A stretch of DNA of 55,073 bases from a virus. Under the pieces are notes generated by a model. It was not told the DNA's origin and did not search any database. It was given only the letters and a program-made list of their open reading frames with translations. A program made the position numbers and the translations under genes. This document shows positions 5,905 through 55,073 of this stretch, piece after piece. Position 1 is the stretch's first letter. Each line of letters starts with the position of its first letter. The stretch is taken from the IMG/VR virus record IMGVR_UViG_3300042469_000249, positions 1 to 55,073 of that record. One strand, written 5' to 3'.

Positions 5905-6190
5905 AAATTATATATCCATTTTCTCTCGCCCACCCTACTTCGTGGTGGCATTTATTGTGACAGGTGCGGCATAAAACCATGAATGAGGACTTGTCACATA
6001 AGAACTTGCCCCTACCTTTCTTATGGTGTAAGTCCGTTCCATGCCCATTACATATTTCGCAAGTGAAATTTTTCTCTTCAAAGTATTCTGCTTTAGCTTT
6101 CTCGTAGTCAGCATTTTTTACTTTTCTTGATCCTGATAAACTCTTTAACTTTTGTCCCGTTTTTTTGAACCCCGTTTTTCTTCGTAACAT
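5891..6190 (-). CDS. HNH endonuclease (99 aa)
   Basis: A small metal-dependent nuclease. A basic N-terminus (MLRRKTGFKKTGQKLKSL) precedes the HNH core: CEIC at about 44-47, LHHKKGRG at about 53-60 with the catalytic His pair, and LCRTCHNKCHHE at about 72-83 with the second zinc-binding Cys pair and the final His. The order Cys-x2-Cys, HH, Cys-x2-Cys-H is complete, so the enzyme is probably active. Short HNH proteins next to terL are common in tailed phages and assist cleavage during packaging; here it lies just past terL on the other strand. A homing function is the alternative. Confidence 0.85.
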   Translation of the reverse strand: MLRRKTGFKKTGQKLKSLSGSRKVKNADYEKAKAEYFEEKNFTCEICNGHGTDLHHKKGRGKFLCDKSSFMVLCRTCHNKCHHEVGWARENGYIIYDYK

Positions 6191-6369
6191 CTATAGTAGT
6201 CTGTTAGCTGTTGAAGTCCGAGGGCGGCCAATTCCAATTTGTCGTAGCTTTCTCTGACTGATTCGGGGAAGGACTTTCCCCTTTGGTGCATGGTGGTTGG
6301 ACTTCCTGCGGAGTAGGGGCTGACTCTGAGGTAGTATTTACCTTCTTGAATTTCGAGAAAGACGTGCAT
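6145..6369 (-). CDS. Hypothetical 74-aa protein overlapping its neighbours
   Basis: Begins MHVFLEIQEGKYYLRVSPYS and has a helical middle (ESYDKLELAALGLQQLTDYYR) and a basic tail. The first 55 codons lie in another frame of the XRE gene's 3' end, and its own 3' end overlaps the HNH start by 46 bases. The sequence looks more like a folded protein than the Pro/Ser/Thr-rich XRE tail in the overlapping frame, so I call both. No family recognised. Confidence 0.55.
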   Translation of the reverse strand: MHVFLEIQEGKYYLRVSPYSAGSPTTMHQRGKSFPESVRESYDKLELAALGLQQLTDYYRCYEEKRGSKKRDKS

Positions 6370-6611
6370 AGGGAAATGATTTTATCTACCTGTTCTTTTT
6401 TAAGAATGCTCTTGGAGTTTACTTCGATCTGGTTAATCAACGATCCAGTCACGCCGATCTTGTCTCCAAGTTCTCTAACAGTCAGTTTAAGCGTTCTCCT
6501 TGTTTCACGAAGTTGGTTTGCAAAAGTCTTTCGTCCAATAGAACGAACCATGCGTGATTGCTCGTAGGCAGTCGCGCAAGCGTCATAAGCATCTTCTAAT
6601 GGATGTTTCAT
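6204..6611 (-). CDS. XRE-family helix-turn-helix regulator (135 aa)
   Basis: A DNA-binding protein. Residues about 28-80 form a lambda-repressor-like HTH: FANQLRETRRTLKLTVRELG, then DKIGVTGSLINQIEVNSKS, the usual scaffold-turn-recognition pattern. The remaining 55 residues are Pro/Ser/Thr-rich and probably flexible; there is no peptidase domain, so it is not a LexA/CI-type cleavable repressor. I start at the ATG complementary to 6609-6611; a TTG three codons upstream is possible. It is divergent from the gene at 6673 across a palindromic operator-promoter, the classic layout of an autoregulated switch. It is one candidate for the protein binding the 16-bp palindromes. Confidence 0.85.
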   Translation of the reverse strand: MKHPLEDAYDACATAYEQSRMVRSIGRKTFANQLRETRRTLKLTVRELGDKIGVTGSLINQIEVNSKSILKKEQVDKIISLCTSFSKFKKVNTTSESAPTPQEVQPPCTKGESPSPNQSEKATTNWNWPPSDFNS

Positions 6612-6633
6612 TTGGATCAAAGTAAACCAAGAC

Positions 6634-6664
6634 TATTGACAAGTCAATACTTTTTTGATATATT
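6634..6664 (+). promoter_or_regulatory. Divergent promoter with palindromic operator
   Basis: TATTGAC-AA-GTCAATA (6634-6649) is a palindrome whose halves contain -35 boxes on both strands. On plus, TTGACA (6636-6641), 17 bases, TATATT (6659-6664) predicts a start near 6671, almost at the ATG of 6673, so the mRNA would be nearly leaderless. On minus, TTGACT (6642-6647) and TACTTT (6619-6624) likewise point to a start next to the regulator ATG. Confidence 0.6.
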
Positions 6665-6672
6665 TGTTACCG

Positions 6673-7053
6673 ATGAATAAAGAAAATTCTAATAAAGATT
6701 TAGATACCAAGCTTCAAGACTTACTGGCAAGTGTCAGGAAGACTGTATTAATTTCCAACATGGCCCTCTCTACGGCCAGCCGCACTTCCTTCATGGCTAC
6801 CTATGAGTCTAATGATGGTATTTGCTCAATGGCTATCAAACCAAACAACATTGCTATTCTCGCCGCAGTATCGACTGGTGGAGCTACAGTCTATAAGGCT
6901 GATTTTGTAGTAACCGATGAGGGTATTGGCGAGCGGCGTTGCATATTCAAGTGCGAGACTGAGCAAGACGCTGATGAGATTTGGGAACTGATGAACGATA
7001 AGATGTATGCTTGGTCGCAGGGTGATATTGAGTCTGTAGATGTAGAATTGTAG
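6673..7053 (+). CDS. Hypothetical 126-aa protein
   Basis: Starts MNKENSNKDLDTKLQDLLAS. A helical N-terminus is followed by a beta-rich middle (MATYESNDGICSMAIKPNNIAIL) and an acidic C-terminus. I choose the ATG at 6673 because the frame upstream uses TTG inside the promoter. It is the first gene of the plus-strand early region and is followed four bases later by palindrome site 3. No family recognised; an early host-interaction protein is a guess from position only. Confidence 0.65.
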   Translation: MNKENSNKDLDTKLQDLLASVRKTVLISNMALSTASRTSFMATYESNDGICSMAIKPNNIAILAAVSTGGATVYKADFVVTDEGIGERRCIFKCETEQDADEIWELMNDKMYAWSQGDIESVDVEL

Positions 7054-7056
7054 AAA

Positions 7057-7072
7057 TTATCGTTACCGATAA
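7057..7072. promoter_or_regulatory. 16-bp palindromic site 3 (TTATCGTTACCGATAA)
   Basis: An intergenic consensus site ending 10 bases before the -35 box of the plus promoter at 7083, so it is well placed to act as an operator for the replication operon. Confidence 0.75.
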
Positions 7073-7082
7073 AAAAAGATGC

Positions 7083-7111
7083 TTGACATGGAATACAACC
7101 TATAGTAGTTT
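7083..7111 (+). promoter_or_regulatory. Promoter for the replication operon
   Basis: TTGACA (7083-7088), 17 bases, TAGTTT (7106-7111); start predicted near 7118. The -35 box is perfect and the -10 box weaker, which would fit a regulated promoter. Palindrome site 3 lies just upstream. Confidence 0.5.
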
Positions 7112-7117
7112 TCAGTT

Positions 7118-7262
7118 GTGCGAGAAATTGCACCTTCGGGGTAGGAGCCGAAGTGAATGAAAAGTCAGTAAATTAACATAACAATATATGATCCCTTGTG
7201 GCATTGCCACTCCTTCGCGTCTGTTGCCGCACTTTTCCAGTGTCACAAGGGGTCGCCTTTTT
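7118..7262 (+). ncRNA. Structured leader RNA with a terminator-like end
   Basis: A 145-base leader before the gene at 7268. It has a CTTCGG/CCGAAG hairpin (7134-7153), then an 11-bp stem joining 7190-7200 (GATCCCTTGTG) with 7244-7254 (CACAAGGGGTC) that encloses GTGGCATTGCCAC and CACT/AGTG hairpins, followed by GCCTTTTTC. This looks like a three-way junction ending in a terminator, so it may be an attenuator or a separate small RNA. No known riboswitch consensus is recognised. Confidence 0.4.
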
Positions 7263-7267
7263 CTAAA

Positions 7268-7582
7268 ATGAAAAAATATGACGATTGTCCAATAAGGACA
7301 AAGAACGGGATAATAATTAAACGAAAAGTAATGCGTATTAAAGGATTGAATCCTCTGCAACGAACATTATTAGCATACATCGAAAATTGGGATAGAGGGT
7401 GCGTGAATGACAAAGAATATTTGGCCTTTGTTTTTGATGTATCAAAATATCGTATAGAGTGTGCATTGGATTTTTTAGCATCGCTTGACCTTATCTACTG
7501 TGAAAATAATTGCGATGAAGTAAAAATATTCTGCAACATCAATTATATTAACGATGTTTATGGGGAGGGAATTGAATTATGA
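7268..7582 (+). CDS. Winged-helix DNA-binding protein (104 aa)
   Basis: The segment GLNPLQRTLLAYIENWDRG...EYLAFVFDVSKYRIECALDFLASLDLIY (about 25-78) has the pattern of a winged helix-turn-helix domain as found at the N-terminus of phage replication initiators. I use the ATG at 7268; upstream codons lie in the terminator-like leader. The stop overlaps the start of the initiator gene by four bases (ATGA), so it is coupled to replication. It probably assists or regulates origin recognition, which is inference from context. Confidence 0.65.
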   Translation: MKKYDDCPIRTKNGIIIKRKVMRIKGLNPLQRTLLAYIENWDRGCVNDKEYLAFVFDVSKYRIECALDFLASLDLIYCENNCDEVKIFCNINYINDVYGEGIEL

Positions 7583-8307
7583 GCGAAAAGAACGAAAGGG
7601 TATTTCGCGGAGTATGGGTTCCAGTAGAGATATGGGAATCTCAATCGCTATCGTGGATGGAGAAATGTTTGTGGGCAGAAATCAGTTCTCTTGGAACTGA
7701 AGAGAAACCATGCTTTGCAAGTAATGGTTATCTTGCAAAAATGTTTCATAGCACGGAATCAAGTATGTCAAACATGATTTCAAAATTGAGGTCATTGAAG
7801 ATGATTAAACAAATTTCTTACGATGGAAGAAGTAGGAAAATTCTCGCTGTTTTACCAAGCGGGACTTCACCCACAAGTGAAGTCAGAGTTCACTCACAGG
7901 TGAAGTCTGACTCAACCCCCAAGTGCAATCAGAGTCAACCTGCTGGTGAAGTCAGAGTCAACCCACAGGTGAACATAGATACTAAGGTAGATAATAGTAG
8001 AGATACTAAAGGAGAATTATCTCTTAATCTCTTAACTTTTCAACAACGAGCAAACCGACTTCTCGGAAGACGCGATGCTACGAACTGGACACCAAAAGAA
8101 ATAAAGGCAGCTAAACCAAACCTCGATACCTGCGAAGAAGACTGGAAGTTACTCGAAAACTTTTATTCCAAACGAAACGAAAAAGATGTTTACACCCGCC
8201 GTTCAATGGAAACCCTCCTCAACAACTGGGCAGGCGAAATAGACAAGGCTCGCGCCCATAAGGAAAGCGAAAGTCAAACAGCTTTCTTTAACAACAATAC
8301 ATTCTAA
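7579..8307 (+). CDS. Replication initiator with origin iterons inside its gene (242 aa)
   Basis: Residues about 10-90 form a winged-helix domain of the phage replication-protein type (WVPVEIWESQSLSWMEKCLW... then YLAKMFHSTESSMSNMISKL). Residues 98-136 are a linker whose DNA consists of five 23-bp repeats. Residues about 150-242 form a helical C-terminal domain (RANRLLGRRDATNWTPKE...). An N-terminal origin-binding domain, a linker encoding the origin and a C-terminal helicase-contact domain is the layout of lambda O, and the next gene is a DnaB-like helicase. The role in origin binding and helicase loading is therefore well supported by architecture, though I see no sequence match to O itself. 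A Shine-Dalgarno (GGGGAGGG) precedes the start. Confidence 0.75.
   Translation: MSEKNERVFRGVWVPVEIWESQSLSWMEKCLWAEISSLGTEEKPCFASNGYLAKMFHSTESSMSNMISKLRSLKMIKQISYDGRSRKILAVLPSGTSPTSEVRVHSQVKSDSTPKCNQSQPAGEVRVNPQVNIDTKVDNSRDTKGELSLNLLTFQQRANRLLGRRDATNWTPKEIKAAKPNLDTCEEDWKLLENFYSKRNEKDVYTRRSMETLLNNWAGEIDKARAHKESESQTAFFNNNTF
7871..7985 (+). repeat. Five 23-bp iterons: putative replication origin
   Basis: The core GTGAAGTC (or close variants) starts at 7877, 7900, 7923, 7946 and 7969, exactly 23 bases apart; the following bases AGAGTCAAC are also repeated. A reversed copy (ACTTCACC) lies just before at 7864-7871. Because 23 is not a multiple of three, the reading frame shifts from copy to copy, so the repeat is kept at DNA level, not protein level. 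This is what binding sites for an initiator look like. Confidence 0.8.
7975..8045. other. AT-rich stretch beside the iterons (possible unwinding element)
   Basis: Directly after the last iteron the coding sequence becomes strongly A/T-rich (ATAGATACTAAGGTAGATAA and following). Iterons followed by an AT-rich unwinding region is the arrangement at lambda ori and many plasmid origins. Confidence 0.5.
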
Positions 8308-8337
8308 CCAGAACGATTCTCCAACTTTTAAACCCTA

Positions 8338-9570
8338 ATGAAAAAAGTCCCAATAGCACGAAAGAGTGAAGCGGCAGCACTCTCATTAATCGCAATCGAC
8401 AGAAACATACTTTCCCAACAAACATGGGATAGTGGTTATTTCGCCATAAACGCCAACAGGCTCGTCTTTGATGCCCTCCAAGGGGTTCACCAGCGGACAG
8501 GAGTTTGCTGCCCGTTCTCAGCCATTGCTGAGTTGGAAGCTACCAGCAATCTCGAAGCGGCTGGTGGTGAAGATGGAGTCCATCAGATTCTATCCACGAT
8601 GAACGTAGCATCTGGAAAGGTTTGTCAGGACATGGCAGACGATTACCGCAAGCATCTACATCGCACCAAATCCTACCGAGATGTAATTACTTTGATGGAG
8701 AAGGAAGAGCCAAATCTACGGACAGGTAAAGCAAATCTAAAGGAATTATCGGAAACGATAATGAAGTGCGCCGAGGATCGGACGAACAAAGTGAAACCAG
8801 TTAAAGACCTAATCATCGAAATCATTGATGAGATGGAAGGAAAGGTAAAAGAAGAAGTCTATCCTACTGGATTAATAAAACTGGATCGTGCGCTCAAGGG
8901 TGGGATGCACAAAGGAGAGATGATGACAGTAGCTTCAGAGACTGGTGGTGGTAAATCCATCTACCTCGTCCAAGCTGCACTTGCAAATCTCTTGGATGGC
9001 AAGTCAGTTCTGTTCTTCAGCCTTGAAATGAAAGCTAAAGACATCCTAACTCGCATGGCTTGTAATATCGCAGGCTATCCAGTGAGAGAACCAGAAGAAT
9101 ACAAGACAGTAAACAAAGATGAACTCGCCAAAATCAGTGCCGCATTGTTGAAATTACACCAGTTGCCCCTTGAAATCGTGGACGGCATAGCTGAAATTGA
9201 CGAGATTGAGGCCAATATCAACCGATACACAGGGGAAAATCGGGCAGATATTATTGTCGTAGATTACCTGCAAATTATCTCATTTGATGGTGTAGAAAGC
9301 AGAGAAGGGCAGTTATCCGAGATTGCAAGGCGTTTAAAACTGGTAGCACTGAAGAATAATGTGATTGTTTTGACTGCTTCACAGCTAAATGACGAGGGAA
9401 GACTGCGTGAATCACGGGCAATTGGAATGCACTCTGACCAAGTAGTGTATATTGAGCATATCAAGGAGAAAAGTAGGCTCACGGTGAAGAAAAACCGCCG
9501 TGGCGCGAGGAATTACACCACAGAAATCATCATGCGTGGAGATATTTCAAAACTTGAGGAGGTTTATTGA
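8338..9570 (+). CDS. DnaB-like replicative helicase (410 aa)
   Basis: The hexameric 5'-3' helicase for phage replication. The N-terminal domain (about 10-115) has the DnaB pattern of small helices. The RecA-like C-terminal domain has Walker A ASETGGGKS at 199-207, the FFSLEM motif typical of DnaB at 227-231, Walker B VVDYLQI at 307-313, and a downstream LTASQLNDEGRLRESR segment (345-360) including the sensor Gln. At 410 aa it is shorter than bacterial DnaB (about 470). It follows the initiator by 30 bases. Palindrome site 4 lies inside, encoding LSETIM at 137-142. Confidence 0.93.
   Translation: MKKVPIARKSEAAALSLIAIDRNILSQQTWDSGYFAINANRLVFDALQGVHQRTGVCCPFSAIAELEATSNLEAAGGEDGVHQILSTMNVASGKVCQDMADDYRKHLHRTKSYRDVITLMEKEEPNLRTGKANLKELSETIMKCAEDRTNKVKPVKDLIIEIIDEMEGKVKEEVYPTGLIKLDRALKGGMHKGEMMTVASETGGGKSIYLVQAALANLLDGKSVLFFSLEMKAKDILTRMACNIAGYPVREPEEYKTVNKDELAKISAALLKLHQLPLEIVDGIAEIDEIEANINRYTGENRADIIVVDYLQIISFDGVESREGQLSEIARRLKLVALKNNVIVLTASQLNDEGRLRESRAIGMHSDQVVYIEHIKEKSRLTVKKNRRGARNYTTEIIMRGDISKLEEVY
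8746..8761. promoter_or_regulatory. 16-bp palindromic site 4 (TTATCGGAAACGATAA)
   Basis: Consensus match inside the helicase gene, in the hinge between N- and C-terminal domains. No promoter seen nearby. Confidence 0.65.
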
Positions 9571-9764
9571 TGACAACTGACCAAGCATATGGAAAAGCGT
9601 TGAAATATTTGGAGGCGGCTAACACAATTTGGGAATCTCAAGACAAGGAAAGGTATTGCATTGCAGAGAACTATCACAATGAAGGAGTAAAAATCATGAA
9701 TCAGTATTTTTCTGAAACAAAAATATTGACAGAGATACAAGATATTGACAATATGCTGCCATGA
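9570..9764 (+). CDS. Hypothetical 64-aa protein
   Basis: Starts MTTDQAYGKALKYLEAANTI with a TGATG overlap to the helicase stop and a good Shine-Dalgarno (GAGGAGG) 10 bases upstream. The sequence is helical throughout (TPR-like spacing of A/Y residues, but only one such unit). Unknown function; coupled to the helicase, so probably expressed with replication proteins. Confidence 0.7.
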   Translation: MTTDQAYGKALKYLEAANTIWESQDKERYCIAENYHNEGVKIMNQYFSETKILTEIQDIDNMLP

Positions 9765-10210
9765 ACGACACACCAGAAACTGAAGCTGCAGTAATTGCAT
9801 CTGGTGGCGATTGGTCACCAGTATTGCGTGAGACTTGCCGCCGACTTGAGCGTCAACGAGACGAATATTATAACAAAGCCATGACGAATGCTGGTTTAAT
9901 TTTAGACGCAAGAGCAGAGCGCGACGAGGCGCGGGAGCATTTGAGAGAAATAAAAGAATACGGCACGGATGAAATCAACGCTGCCGTAGAACTTCGCCAG
10001 AAACTTGCTCAGGCTCTTGTTGATTTGGATAATATGCAAGACCAACGCGATCTTGCAATGAAAGTGATAACACGTCTTAAACAAGAACGCGACGAGGTGC
10101 GGGAGGTGTTTTGGGAGATGTGGCAATCTGGAGATGCTTTTTTACCTCACGTTGACGAAGAAACAACAAACCGCTGGCGCAAGGCCGCTGGATGGGAAGA
10201 AACAAAATGA
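9761..10210 (+). CDS. Coiled-coil protein of the TPET type (149 aa)
   Basis: The N-terminus MNDTPETEAAVI followed by LRETCRRLERQRDE and a long heptad-rich helix is the form of many small phage proteins that begin with TPET(D/E)A and contain LERERDEA repeats. Its own DNA has repeated RDEAREHL/RDEVREVF units. Residues about 20-125 should form coiled coil; the C-terminus (TTNRWRKAAGWEE) is conserved-looking. Function unknown. ATGA overlaps on both sides place it in one translational chain with 9570 and 10207. Confidence 0.75.
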   Translation: MNDTPETEAAVIASGGDWSPVLRETCRRLERQRDEYYNKAMTNAGLILDARAERDEAREHLREIKEYGTDEINAAVELRQKLAQALVDLDNMQDQRDLAMKVITRLKQERDEVREVFWEMWQSGDAFLPHVDEETTNRWRKAAGWEETK

Positions 10211-10383
10211 GCAGACCTACACCAGAGACGGATGCGGAGGCTTGGATTGAAACTGACCGGGCAAACGCTGTAGTCTTTGCAAAATTCGCTCGCGGTATGG
10301 AACGCGAACGCGACGAGGCGAGGAAACAAATTGATGATTATAGAGAACGACACGATTTACTTCCAATAAGTTGGGAACTTTAA
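10207..10383 (+). CDS. Second TPET-type small protein (58 aa)
   Basis: Starts MSRPTPETDAEAWIETD and contains ARGMERERDEARKQ, the same elements as the preceding 149-aa protein, so the two are probably paralogues or share a domain. I choose the ATG at 10207, which overlaps the previous stop; an ATG five codons earlier is possible. Unknown function. Confidence 0.7.
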   Translation: MSRPTPETDAEAWIETDRANAVVFAKFARGMERERDEARKQIDDYRERHDLLPISWEL

Positions 10384-10388
10384 ACACT

Positions 10389-10718
10389 ATGATAAACTCA
10401 AGAGCTAAAGGAGCAAGAGGCGAGAGGCAGTGGAGGGATCAACTCCGTGCAGAAGGTTACACAGCTAAACGAGGTCAGCAATTTGCAGGAGGACAAGACT
10501 CGCCAGATGTGGTATGTGAAGAACTAAAAGGTAAACTCCACTTTGAAGTAAAGTGTGTTCAGAATTTGAATTTAGATAAAGCTTGCGAACAGGCCGAGCG
10601 AGATGCTAATGGCATTGCTTGGGCAGTGGCTCACAAAAAAAACAATAAGAACTGGAAGGTAACAATCCCTGCCGACTTGTTCTTTAAACTTCTCAGGGAT
10701 GGAATTGATGGATTATGA
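10389..10718 (+). CDS. PD-(D/E)XK nuclease, Holliday-junction-resolvase-like (109 aa)
   Basis: MINSRAKGARGERQWRDQLR at the N-terminus supplies the Lys/Arg-rich helix and the first acidic residue (E13), SPDVVCEEL (about 38-46) the catalytic Asp, and HFEVKCVQ (about 52-59) the ExK pair. Motif order and length match small archaeal-type Hjc resolvases and related phage nucleases. It would resolve branched intermediates before packaging. The start ATG is at 10389, six bases after the previous stop. Confidence 0.8.
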   Translation: MINSRAKGARGERQWRDQLRAEGYTAKRGQQFAGGQDSPDVVCEELKGKLHFEVKCVQNLNLDKACEQAERDANGIAWAVAHKKNNKNWKVTIPADLFFKLLRDGIDGL

Positions 10719-10900
10719 AACCAACAACTAAAGTAGGTAAGGCCGCAAAGGTGGCTAAGGTAATGAAAGAATACAAGGCTGGCAAACTGAAAGCTGGCAT
10801 CAACCCCAAAGGCCCAAAGAAAGCACCAATGGCTAAGAGCCGTAAACAAGCCGTAGCAATCGCACTTTCACAAGCAGGAATGTCTAAAAAGAAAAAATGA
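10715..10900 (+). CDS. Small basic histone-like protein, DUF6496-type (61 aa)
   Basis: The sequence MKPTTKVGKAAKVAKVMKEY...KSRKQAVAIALSQAGMSKKKK is Lys/Ala-rich and matches the pattern I associate with DUF6496 in phages (KVMKEYKxGKLKSG...SRKQAIAIALSEAG). It would bind nucleic acid through charge. It overlaps the nuclease stop by four bases and begins a cluster of five basic small genes. Confidence 0.7.
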   Translation: MKPTTKVGKAAKVAKVMKEYKAGKLKAGINPKGPKKAPMAKSRKQAVAIALSQAGMSKKKK

Positions 10901-11043
10901 AAACTGGACTCTACGCAAATATCGCAGCAAAGAAAAAACGCATCGCTGCGGGAAGCGGTGAGAAGATGAGGAAGGTTGGCAGCAAAGGCGCACCAACTGC
11001 AAAAGCATTTAAACAATCAGCAAAAACAGCAAAGAAAAAATGA
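10897..11043 (+). CDS. Small basic protein (48 aa)
   Basis: Reads MKTGLYANIAAKKKRIAAG then SGEKMRKVGSKGAPTAKAF and ends KTAKKK. The GLYANI..KR.RIAAGSGEKMR.PGS.GAPTAKAF pattern recurs in environmental phages as I recall it. ATGA overlap with the previous gene. Function unknown; probably nucleic-acid or capsid associated because of the charge. Confidence 0.7.
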   Translation: MKTGLYANIAAKKKRIAAGSGEKMRKVGSKGAPTAKAFKQSAKTAKKK

Positions 11044-51971: not shown

Positions 51972-52217
51972 TTAGATTTCGTCAAGGTCTGGATCAATCG
52001 TGCTATCCGCTGGCTCTTTATGCTTTGCAGTAGCTCTTGCTTTTTTGAATGCTCCTTGCTCTTCTGTTCCAATAGCGTCAATAGCTTTGATTGCATGGAT
52101 GAGTGTGGTTACTCCTTCTGGTGGGTTTACATTAAGTAGCAAATATGCTTGTAGTTTGTTCCAGTCTTCGTGTGATGTTATCGCCGCGCATAGGGATTTT
52201 ACTTTTTCTGTTGTCAT
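51972..52217 (-). CDS. Small helical protein (81 aa, complete right copy)
   Basis: Reads MTTEKVKSLCAAITSHEDWN, KLQAYLLLNVNPPEGVTTLI, then HAIKAIDAIGTEEQGAFKKA and an acidic end DPDLDEI. Complete counterpart of the truncated gene at 1-182, from which it differs by one residue in the compared part (VNPP against VTPP). Four-base overlap with the upstream gene and three-base gap to the scaffold start. Unknown family; probably in head assembly. Confidence 0.7.
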   Translation of the reverse strand: MTTEKVKSLCAAITSHEDWNKLQAYLLLNVNPPEGVTTLIHAIKAIDAIGTEEQGAFKKARATAKHKEPADSTIDPDLDEI

Positions 52218-52978
52218 TCTTTTGGTAGTTGTGTTTTAAGCCAGTCAGCCCAACGCTTTTGCATTGGGGTTATTGTTCCCGCCGATTCATCTCCTGTAAG
52301 GATACGAGCTAATACGCTTTGCTTTAGCGGAGTCTTGTCTTGAATCTTTCCGTATTGAGTTCCAGCAAATGCTTTTTCTTGTTCTGGAGTAAGGTTAAAT
52401 TTTGGTATGATGTTTTTTTCATCAATAAAGTTCCTAATAGCTTCGTTTTTAGCTACTGCCATTTGTTGTTCATTACTCAAGTTGCTAAAAGGATTTAGAA
52501 CAATTGAACGAGGAACATCTGTTGATGAATCATTTTTTCCTGCACCCCATTGCATTCCTGTTGTTTGTGGATTTTCCTTAAACCACTTCAAAAGGTCTTC
52601 ATCAGGTTCTACAATTGGATAACCTAAAATTGATCGCGTTGTTTTTCTTGCTTCTTTAGGAGATTCATCAGGTTGAGCAAAGAAAGGTAATTTTTTAGAT
52701 TCTCTTTCTTTTGCAAATTCAACCGCTTTTCGTGTAATAGATTTATTTAAATCTGGATTTACAGAATTTAGTTTATCTGCTGGAGTAGAAAGTAGATATT
52801 TTAATTCATTATCATCCAAAGTTGGAACCATCGTTGGGATAAGTTTTTCTCCGCTACCCCAGTCGATTCCAATAGATAATTCTGTAGAAACATCTTTAGG
52901 ATTATCAAGTCTTGGAATTGCACCAAGGAATCCTGTTCCTTTTACTGTATTATCTGGCCGAAGATTGTTTGCGTTCAT
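52214..52978 (-). CDS. Virion-region protein with GFLGAIPR / MVPTL motif (254 aa, long allele)
   Basis: Same N-terminus and C-terminus as the 195-aa product at 179-766, with an extra middle block beginning after FFAQPDES: KEARKTTRSILGYPIVEPDE, LLKWFKENPQTTGMQWGAG and VPRSIVLNPFSNLSNEQQMA. Because the block ends near a similar RSI.N context it could be a deletion between short repeats in the other allele. Overlaps both neighbours by four bases. Confidence 0.75.
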   Translation of the reverse strand: MNANNLRPDNTVKGTGFLGAIPRLDNPKDVSTELSIGIDWGSGEKLIPTMVPTLDDNELKYLLSTPADKLNSVNPDLNKSITRKAVEFAKERESKKLPFFAQPDESPKEARKTTRSILGYPIVEPDEDLLKWFKENPQTTGMQWGAGKNDSSTDVPRSIVLNPFSNLSNEQQMAVAKNEAIRNFIDEKNIIPKFNLTPEQEKAFAGTQYGKIQDKTPLKQSVLARILTGDESAGTITPMQKRWADWLKTQLPKE

Positions 52979-55073
52979 AGTGTTGCTGGAGGTGGTTCTT
53001 CTGTTTCCATCTCAACTTCTTCAGTAGCTTCTGGAGTTTCAACTTCCACTTCTTCAGTCTCTTCTTCCTCTGGCTCTTCTTCTTCCATCTCTGGTTGCTC
53101 TGCCTTCATCTTGCCTTTGGTCTTTTGAATCTCAGCGCGAGCTTTAGCCTTTTGAAGCGCAAGTTGAGTGATGCCTTGTTCTTTCCGTTGTTCTGTGCGT
53201 TGAGCGTGACTGATCGAAGCCTTGCCGATTGCGATGTCAGAAAGTTTTTTCTTAGTATCAATCTCAATACCAGATTTAGCAGCGAGATATTGCAGTTTAA
53301 TATCTTCTTCAGAGTTAGGCTGACCAGATTTTTGAGCTTCAGCTTCTGCCATCTGAACATACACTTGTTGAAGTTCATCAGCCATTGCTTGAGCTTCACC
53401 CATGCCCTGCATGAATTGTTTCAAGAAGTCCTGCTTTGATTGATCTCTACTGATATACTCAACGTGTGCCATGATGTGGCCACCCTTGAATTTAACTGAG
53501 CGCACTGCCTTGGAAAGTTCTGCAAGTTCTGGTTGACCCTGCTGCACAGATTGCAAGTTCATCTGCAACTGCATAATCATGTCTTGGAAGTGACCAGTTG
53601 CGTGTTCGATATGTGGATCAGTTGGTAGAACTGGGAAGTTTTGCGGATTAACAAACGCATCTGTCATGCCAGCATTTTCAAATCCAATGATACGAGCTGT
53701 ATCATCAATCTTGCTTGGCTTAGTATTACGATAGCGAGCTACGTTGTCTCGTCCAGAAAGCGCGGCGATTGCGTCTTTAACAGCATTCTCTTGCCCTTCG
53801 TTTGCTGGAGTGATTGCTGTAATCTGCAACAACTTTTCTGCGGTAATCAGTTTGAATGATGGACTGCCTGCCCCATTGATGAGGTTTGAACGGATACTTG
53901 TGATGTTCTTCCAAGCCGCCGCTTCTTTTGGAGTTCCGAGTTCTTCCAAAACTTCATAGAACTTTTTAACAAACTCATATCCATCATCGCTGGACTTTGC
54001 ACTTACAAAGCGTTTGTAGAGTTGCTTGAAGTAAAGGGTTTGGCACTCATTAAATCGACGTATTTGAGTTCCAGATAGTTTTGCTGATTCGGCGGCATCA
54101 AGTTCTGCTTCGCCTTTTGTCCTTTGTTTTCCGCCAGCAGTAGGAGCGTTGATACGATACTGCCCCATGCCCCTATACATATCTCCCATGAAGAACTGCA
54201 TGAAGCTCATGCTTTCTGCCACTGGAAGTTGGAAGCGGTTCTGGATGAACTTAGCTCCATCTGGCATTACGCTAATAGGTAGCCACTCCATTTGCTTGAG
54301 CATCTTAGTTGAGTCTGGCCCTTGTCCCTCGATCATCAGCATGGAGTTGAGTCGCACCGCATCAACCAATGAGTTCATCGTAAAGTCATACTGGCGGCAA
54401 GCAACGAACGCCGATTCAGCTTGGCTCTTGATGTCTTGAAAGAGTCCACTACCTACCGAGTCGGTGAGCATATACAAAATCTCATCCCAAGAATCATAGA
54501 GTCCAATCTTGAGCATCATAAACCCATGCTGAGTTCTGATGTCATCTTCACTGATCTTACCTGCTCCCTTTACATTGGAGTTAATGTAATCAGCGATTGG
54601 TTGATAGTCTTGAAGGATAATTGCTTTACTAATCTTACCATCAAACTCTCTCCAGTAAACTTCGTAGAGGTCGATCTTTTGGTTTACTGACAATGACCAG
54701 TTAAATCCTGACTCACTGATCGTGCGGAAGAAATCTTCGCGGGTCTTTCTATGATTTGTAAAAGCGCGGTGGAAACGGATAGCGTCAATAGCTGCATCCA
54801 CATTCCATCCCATCGCTTCTGCTGCGGCACGATTCTCAATCTTTTTATAGAGTTCGTATGGAGTCAAACGGACACGCCGGACAAACTCCTCAAGGTTTGA
54901 AAAGTCGATCCTAATGTCGTCTGGAAAGAGAAGGTCGGATAGGAAGACGTGTTCTGGCATCCATCCAAGTGGACTATCCCACATTCCAATTCCCTTTCCA
55001 TACAATAGCATTTCCTCAAGGTCTTGTTCTGCATTGTAGAGGTATCCGGGCCATTCACGCAAGGCTTGGTCAA
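52975..55073 (-). CDS. Portal protein, partial (right allele, at least 695 aa)
   Basis: The frame runs off the right edge, so about 135 N-terminal residues are missing. It is almost identical to the portal at 763-3255, with few substitutions (for example SKTIIL/SKAIIL, VNSKSS/VSAKSS, NMQSVQQ/NLQSVQQ) and a tail four residues shorter. Mostly silent differences show that both alleles are under purifying selection. Confidence 0.8.
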   Translation of the reverse strand, partial: DQALREWPGYLYNAEQDLEEMLLYGKGIGMWDSPLGWMPEHVFLSDLLFPDDIRIDFSNLEEFVRRVRLTPYELYKKIENRAAAEAMGWNVDAAIDAIRFHRAFTNHRKTREDFFRTISESGFNWSLSVNQKIDLYEVYWREFDGKISKAIILQDYQPIADYINSNVKGAGKISEDDIRTQHGFMMLKIGLYDSWDEILYMLTDSVGSGLFQDIKSQAESAFVACRQYDFTMNSLVDAVRLNSMLMIEGQGPDSTKMLKQMEWLPISVMPDGAKFIQNRFQLPVAESMSFMQFFMGDMYRGMGQYRINAPTAGGKQRTKGEAELDAAESAKLSGTQIRRFNECQTLYFKQLYKRFVSAKSSDDGYEFVKKFYEVLEELGTPKEAAAWKNITSIRSNLINGAGSPSFKLITAEKLLQITAITPANEGQENAVKDAIAALSGRDNVARYRNTKPSKIDDTARIIGFENAGMTDAFVNPQNFPVLPTDPHIEHATGHFQDMIMQLQMNLQSVQQGQPELAELSKAVRSVKFKGGHIMAHVEYISRDQSKQDFLKQFMQGMGEAQAMADELQQVYVQMAEAEAQKSGQPNSEEDIKLQYLAAKSGIEIDTKKKLSDIAIGKASISHAQRTEQRKEQGITQLALQKAKARAEIQKTKGKMKAEQPEMEEEEPEEEETEEVEVETPEATEEVEMETEEPPPATL

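Follow-up and report, generated by a model that had tools for sequence, protein, structure and literature searches.

Tandem iterons inside the initiator gene of an uncultured phage mark a probable replication origin and vary with the initiator's DNA-binding domain

The replication origin of an uncultured phage most probably lies inside its own initiator gene. We analyzed a viral DNA sequence of 55,073 nucleotides (IMG/VR record IMGVR_UViG_3300042469_000249, hereafter the window) and, judging from its sequence and that of its relatives, assign a probability of about 90% to the region from 7863 to about 8045 being this origin. Published precedent for an intragenic iteron origin is found in the phages lambda, P22 and L (PMC7466680, PMC8022706). 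Every structural and genetic feature that characterizes initiators with such an origin, as represented by lambda O and P22 gp18, is present. Tandem direct repeats with dyad symmetry lie inside the initiator coding sequence and are under DNA-level selection, and AT-rich DNA of low stability adjoins them. The encoded protein is modelled by AlphaFold2 with an N-terminal helix-turn-helix domain, a linker over the iterons and a C-terminal partner domain, and the gene immediately downstream is for a helicase. By sequence, the membership of the initiator in the lambda O family is marginal. The intragenic-iteron plan itself is already known; of more interest is an unusually clear modular exchange of origin specificity. 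The features discussed are as follows.

6204-6620, minus strand: divergent HTH repressor-like gene (HTH_3/HTH_19 matches)
6636-6664, plus strand: promoter-like site TTGACA-17-TATATT, the second hexamer being preceded by TG (11 of 12 positions match in a consensus scan)
7190-7262, plus strand: conserved leader hairpin of ~70 nt followed by a T-run (stem 7190-7254; 15-bp stem with compensatory changes)
7268-7582, plus strand: small gene (P0003) of 104 aa that precedes the initiator gene and overlaps it (translation)
7579-8307, plus strand: replication initiator (P0001) of 242 aa (PHROG matches, AlphaFold2 model)
7579-7863, plus strand: N-domain of the initiator, a winged helix (AlphaFold2 models m8ca74aa4d8f5 and m96496ce00e3d; Foldseek)
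7863-7977, plus strand: iteron array of five 23-bp units (repeat searches, recoding tests, synonymous constraint)
7978-8045, plus strand: AT-rich stretch, proposed DNA-unwinding element (GC, duplex stability, synonymous constraint)
8029-8295 (codons 151-239), plus strand: helical C-domain of the initiator, proposed to contact the helicase (model)
8338-9570, plus strand: DnaB-like replicative helicase of 410 aa (PF03796, 2e-32; PHROG 19, 1e-53)

In the proposed mechanism, dimers of the winged-helix N-domain would occupy neighbouring dyads along the five iterons and strain the adjacent AT-rich stretch until it melts. The C-domain would bring the DnaB-like helicase, the product of the next gene, onto the opened DNA. 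The iterons lie in the coding sequence just behind the domain that would read them; lock and key would therefore be inherited and exchanged together.

Iteron array, initiator and selection on the DNA

The five units start at 7863, 7886, 7909, 7932 and 7955, and each consists of a 22-bp dyad plus 1 bp. An initial annotation had reported GTGAAGTC-type cores every 23 bases, and their starts were reproduced at 7877, 7900, 7923, 7946 and 7969. Tandem Repeats Finder delimits the array at 7866-7973, with a period of 23 and 4.7 copies. Unit 1 reads GACTTCAC-CCACAA-GTGAAGTC, an inverted repeat that is perfect over 8-bp arms; later units are less perfect and the dyads as a whole are imperfect over 22 bp. 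The exact form TTCAC-N6-GTGAA occurs at only two sites in the whole window, 7866 and 7889, both inside the array. GC content is 50% in the array and 42% in the initiator gene.

The array occupies DNA that encodes a protein linker. P0001 matches two PHROGs annotated as replication initiation protein (PHROG 270, 2e-12; PHROG 2880, 6e-10). In an AlphaFold2 model built from 32 related sequences, the winged-helix domain comprises residues 16-90, with the recognition helix at about 60-72 and the wing at 76-90. Residues 96-145 are predicted to be disordered (96-110 and 112-145), and the helical part of the C-domain, modelled with pLDDT of about 90, spans about 143-239. Because codons 95-132, which make up the array, encode a segment without confident structure, the array can be regarded as linker-coding DNA. 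The model thus agrees with the earlier placement of the repeats between the winged-helix and C-terminal domains.

Foldseek searches with the whole model and with the N-domain returned MarR-type winged helices and RepA_N initiators as N-domain matches; only the fold class is concluded from them, because the E-values exceed 0.007. A PDB sequence search with the initiator returned no meaningful match. PHROG 186 (DnaD-like helicase loaders) matches residues 12-156 of P0001 only (E = 1e-6), and Pfam DnaD_N matches 10 of the 32 relatives (best 3.5e-5), P0001 not among them. RepA_N (PF06970) was found neither in P0001 (E up to 0.5) nor in the 32 relatives (E up to 0.01).

The initial annotation held that the repeat crosses reading frames and is selected as DNA, and both recoding and comparison of relatives bear this out. 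Lag-23 identity over the codon-aligned stretch is 68/97, compared with 40.3 +/- 4.8 in synonymous recodings of the same peptide (0/20,000 as high). In a search of lags 14-35, the array scores 30.5 against 7.7 +/- 1.6 in peptide-preserving recodings, none of which reached it (0/400). We then compared codons among 16 distinct initiator genes of equal length from close relatives. Synonymous divergence (pS) and pN/pS, in that order, are 0.343 and 0.03 for the N-domain, 0.057 and 0.98 for the array, 0.042 and 2.03 for the AT-rich stretch (codons 133-150), 0.240 and 0.09 for the C-domain, and 0.412 and 0.26 for the tail. Codons 112-145 form a run of 34 consecutive codons with zero synonymous change in the 16 genes. 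The constraint on the block 95-150 was never equalled by random codon sets (0/20,000), and the lowest 56-codon stretch is at 0.22 in the helicase gene of the same phages versus 0.03 in the initiator gene. The synonymous freeze, together with pN/pS of about 1-2 in the array and AT-rich stretch, therefore indicates that selection acts on the DNA. Rather than keeping the linker peptide and losing the 23-bp period, these relatives keep the array DNA while the peptide drifts. A second, weaker synonymous dip of about 0.10-0.14 lies in the C-domain at codons 186-210 (8134-8208), possibly a further cis element.

The AT-rich stretch noted behind the array was also substantiated. The 68 nt directly 3' of the array have 28% GC, and the least stable 50-bp duplex of 7300-9550 begins at 7988, yet another segment of the initiator gene has lower GC. 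Such a stretch follows the array in most families compared. By eye, these AT-rich runs look alike behind unrelated arrays (ATACAA/ATACTA/AGATAATAG-type), sometimes in different reading frames; this likeness was seen in L034, L035, L114, L115, L117, L118, lambda (L120) and the P22-type L121. Neither exact consensus DnaA boxes nor TTWTNCACA were found in 6000-11000. Cumulative GC skew gave no usable minimum and is uninformative for origin mapping because it follows gene orientation.

Array sequence, DNA-binding domain and cassette exchange

Relatives were found by protein similarity and sorted into crossed combinations of N-domain and C-domain, since the same C-domain also occurs behind unrelated N-domains. 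In L021-L025, the N-domain is that of the window and the C-domain is about 45% identical or unrelated; the 23-bp GTGAA/TTCAC units are kept. In L026-L036, the C-domain is that of the window and the N-domains are unrelated; the detectable arrays differ but occupy the same place. Array lengths in relatives with the same C-domain and a different N-domain are 16, 21, 22-23 or 25-26 bp (25-26 bp in L026, L028, L030 and L031; 16 bp in L032 and L035; 21 bp in L034). These relatives are metagenomic contigs with many near-duplicates, and counts are on distinct or non-redundant genes that are not phylogenetically independent.

Internal repeats extend well beyond the close relatives. For 30 of 33 initiators, including distant ones from Pseudomonas, Halomonas, Lysinibacillus, Oceanospirillum, Endozoicomonas and Clostridia, the repeat was reached by peptide-preserving recoding in at most 5 of 400 trials; L033, L078 and L112 had no significant array in this test. 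The last of these is Leptospira phage LE1, where an N-domain relative sits between parA and parB; its origin may be organised differently, because no internal array reached significance in this relative. In four Halomonas-type genes, the top-scoring repeat is a nearby one of lag 14, though 22-bp units are visible. Several arrays have only two clear units, and in some the units are few and degenerate. A strict test on six consecutive dyad pairs was significant in the window and many families; it was not significant in the GGTAAC-type, 16-bp and some other families, where the arms are short or imperfect, and we therefore do not claim perfect dyads for every family. A scan of viral contigs by C-domain alignment found no loci beyond those already found, and a scan of a genome collection found only distant N-domain relatives, in Pseudomonas, Halomonas/Vreelandella, Clostridia and Endozoicomonas.

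As judged from these gene comparisons, array sequence follows the DNA-binding domain, not the C-domain. The Mantel correlation between N-domain and iteron is 0.65, and that between N-domain and C-domain 0.02. Given that the partial Mantel correlation of C-domain and iteron controlling for the N-domain is also significant (r 0.32), we base the claim on the crossed contrasts together with the permutation within C types. In a set of 51 non-redundant genes, linker DNA shares 8-mers at a level of 0.166 when the N-domain is the same and the C-domain differs, and of 0.014 when the N-domain differs and the C-domain is the same. When N labels were shuffled within C types, the observed effect was never reached (0/2000). 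A weaker effect of C type on linker similarity remains in these 51 genes, probably through shared ancestry of whole genes. Within type N1 (see below), recognition helix and half-site change jointly: SEP..KK is paired with GGTAAC, SEETTRK with TGAAC, and SEPTAKR with GGTAAG/A. The expected co-variation of iterons with the DNA-binding domain was thus recovered in two datasets (Mantel and 8-mer permutation) and in the N1 pairing.

Exchange of this module is seen at loci that share the leader hairpin, the fixed left flank of the exchanged cassette before the replication genes. A pattern scan for the leader retrieved 83 stretches of viral contigs. At nearly every readable locus, the replication genes start directly 3' of the leader and the initiators differ. 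The 68 distinct initiator genes at these loci represent seven N-types, unrelated to one another, together with at least three C-types; a helicase with the signature VPIAxKSEA is present in most loci with a long enough contig. When loci of different N-type are compared, identity is 85% in the leader and 81% in the protein sequence at the start of the helicase, whereas N-domain identity does not rise above the 17% background. At least seven unrelated types of DNA-binding domain therefore lie between the same leader and the same helicase, six with a detectable array.

N1: GGTAAC-N4-GTTA or TGAAC..GTTCA, 25-27 bp
N2: the window's unit, 23 bp
N3: GGAAGATTCTTCC, 22-23 bp
N4: TCCCGANTCGGGA-like, 16 bp (not significant in 4 of 8)
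N5: AAATACCTA..-type, 21-22 bp
N6: no clear array
N7: CCGCAAGGTGCGG, 21 bp

Twelve of the 68 genes, most N6 genes included, have no significant array. A search of 6500-8400 against Rfam gave nothing above the gathering score, leaving the leader without an Rfam family. It may be a terminator or attenuator, act in antitermination, or anchor the exchange. We see even chances that, in one lineage of uncultured phages, a plug-in cassette sets the specificity of the origin, that switching it would let phages escape origin-directed interference, and that the leader may anchor exchange or be a regulatory RNA. If so, a change of origin type would evade decoy origins, co-infecting relatives, satellites and origin-targeting defence.

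These loci constitute a natural experiment, with seven unrelated types of DNA-binding domain, one helicase, shared flanks and, inside one type, paired recognition helices and half-sites. As a result, a joint change in the specificity of initiator and origin is directly testable. The combination of synonymous constraint with a period not divisible by three also offers a sequence-only rule for origins in viral metagenomes.

Other possible roles of the array

Tandem dyads would also be fitting targets for a winged-helix protein that regulates its own gene, and in known replicons iterons often serve both as origin and in autoregulation. The array could accordingly be an operator through which the initiator represses or paces its own operon, with replication starting elsewhere. 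We consider this unlikely. The promoter-like site at 6636-6664 is distant, the array being about 1.2 kb into the transcription unit, and no further exact dyad occurs near that site or elsewhere in the window. Selection also reaches past the array into the AT-rich stretch, within the 34 codons lacking synonymous change. A partition or incompatibility site of a phage-plasmid is less probable still. It is suggested by LE1, whose distant N-domain relative lies beside parA and parB, but LE1 itself has no significant array, no ParA/ParB-like protein was present among the window proteins scanned (a subset of ORFs), and the array changes together with the DNA-binding domain of the initiator itself.

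N-domains are often exchanged at this position, which raises the prospect that the constraint reflects a recombination hot spot or an RNA element for cassette exchange, with the origin elsewhere. However, what the loci share is the leader at 7190-7262 together with the genes downstream, not the array; because the arrays at the junction are unrelated, there is no shared sequence there to recombine on, and we rate this reading as improbable as the partition site. Least credible is that the DNA has no role and that the repeat, in a flexible linker, is one of the peptide or a product of slippage. The encoded segment is predicted to be disordered, where repeats are cheap, but the period of 23 is not a multiple of three, recoding with the same peptide never reproduces it, and synonymous sites are frozen while amino acids change. 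Synonymous constraint refutes this explanation, unless another DNA-level signal causes the constraint. An origin of replication within the initiator gene remains our preferred reading.

Comparison with known systems and genome surroundings

The initial annotation likened the region to the lambda O/ori/P plan. This is well supported, and gene 18/gene 12 of phages P22 and L is a closer plan, because a helicase gene, not that of a loader, comes next. As anticipated, that gene encodes a DnaB-like helicase. The same order, initiator then helicase, is found in every close relative and in most loci with sufficient contig downstream. Lambda, P22 and L have different iterons, each inside the initiator coding region, and in P22 and L a DnaB-type helicase gene accompanies the initiator (PMC8022706). 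Their gene 18-gene 12 region resembles the window in its O-like initiator with internal iterons, the AT-rich DNA after them and the DnaB-type helicase gene next (PMC8022706), as well as in iterons whose sequence differs with the DNA-binding part of the initiator. The P22-type control L121 reproduced the layout of intragenic iterons and DnaB-type helicase gene. The window, from an uncultured phage, differs from P22 and L in iteron sequence and length (23 bp, five units) and in its C-domain.

Lambda shares with the window tandem inverted-repeat iterons in mid-gene, an adjoining AT-rich tract and a partner gene next (PMC7466680; L120). It has four 18-bp iterons with uneven spacing and the helicase loader P, whereas the window has five regular units and a helicase, and sequence similarity is not significant. 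The initial statement of no visible similarity to lambda was nearly right, the exception being a match to the O-like PHROG 345 at E = 0.004. Profile-profile comparison (hhalign) with lambdoid O N-domains aligned 35 helix-turn-helix columns at 76% probability, and many relatives match the O-like PHROGs 678 and 391 strongly. Uncultured phages that resemble lambda hardly at all in sequence would thereby share the lambda/P22 plan, in which the origin lies within the initiator gene.

Two further groups of initiators are comparable. RepA_N plasmid initiators of the pSK41 type likewise have a winged-helix N-domain, central Rep boxes in rep, an origin-encoded linker and a separate C-domain for the replication partner (PMC5703833). 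Their structures 4pql, 4pt7 and 5kbj are among the best Foldseek matches of the N-domain by query-normalised TM-score (about 0.60-0.65). In contrast, the window is from a phage, not a plasmid, its initiator has no RepA_N Pfam match, and the pSK41 C-domain contacts DnaG primase. Initiators of PHROGs 270, 2880 and 428, from Pseudomonas, Halomonas, Lysinibacillus, Oceanospirillum and other phages and prophages, have a homologous N-domain with the motif GVWIPxExW. In nearly all of those examined, a tandem array lies right behind it, as in the window, but iterons and C-domains are different and a DnaC-like loader or other partner is often encoded downstream.

The putative promoter at 6636-6664 precedes the early/replication operon, opposite the divergent HTH repressor-like gene. 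P0003 has no Pfam match and no significant PHROG match, and relatives have other small ORFs in its place; at many loci, a small gene of 86-104 aa with variable sequence lies between leader and initiator. Many relatives carry an additional gene between those for the initiator and the helicase, adjoining the proposed origin; its product is DNA methyltransferase-like (MNELHLFAGAGGG... or ...DCIVTDPPYG...). It is present in L132, L134, L139, L141, L154, L164, L177, L203 and others; the window is without it (8308-8337). The two ends of the record, 1-2873 and about 52036-55073, overlap with 88-93% identity, as would be seen if two strains had contributed to the assembly of a circular or permuted genome of about 52 kb.
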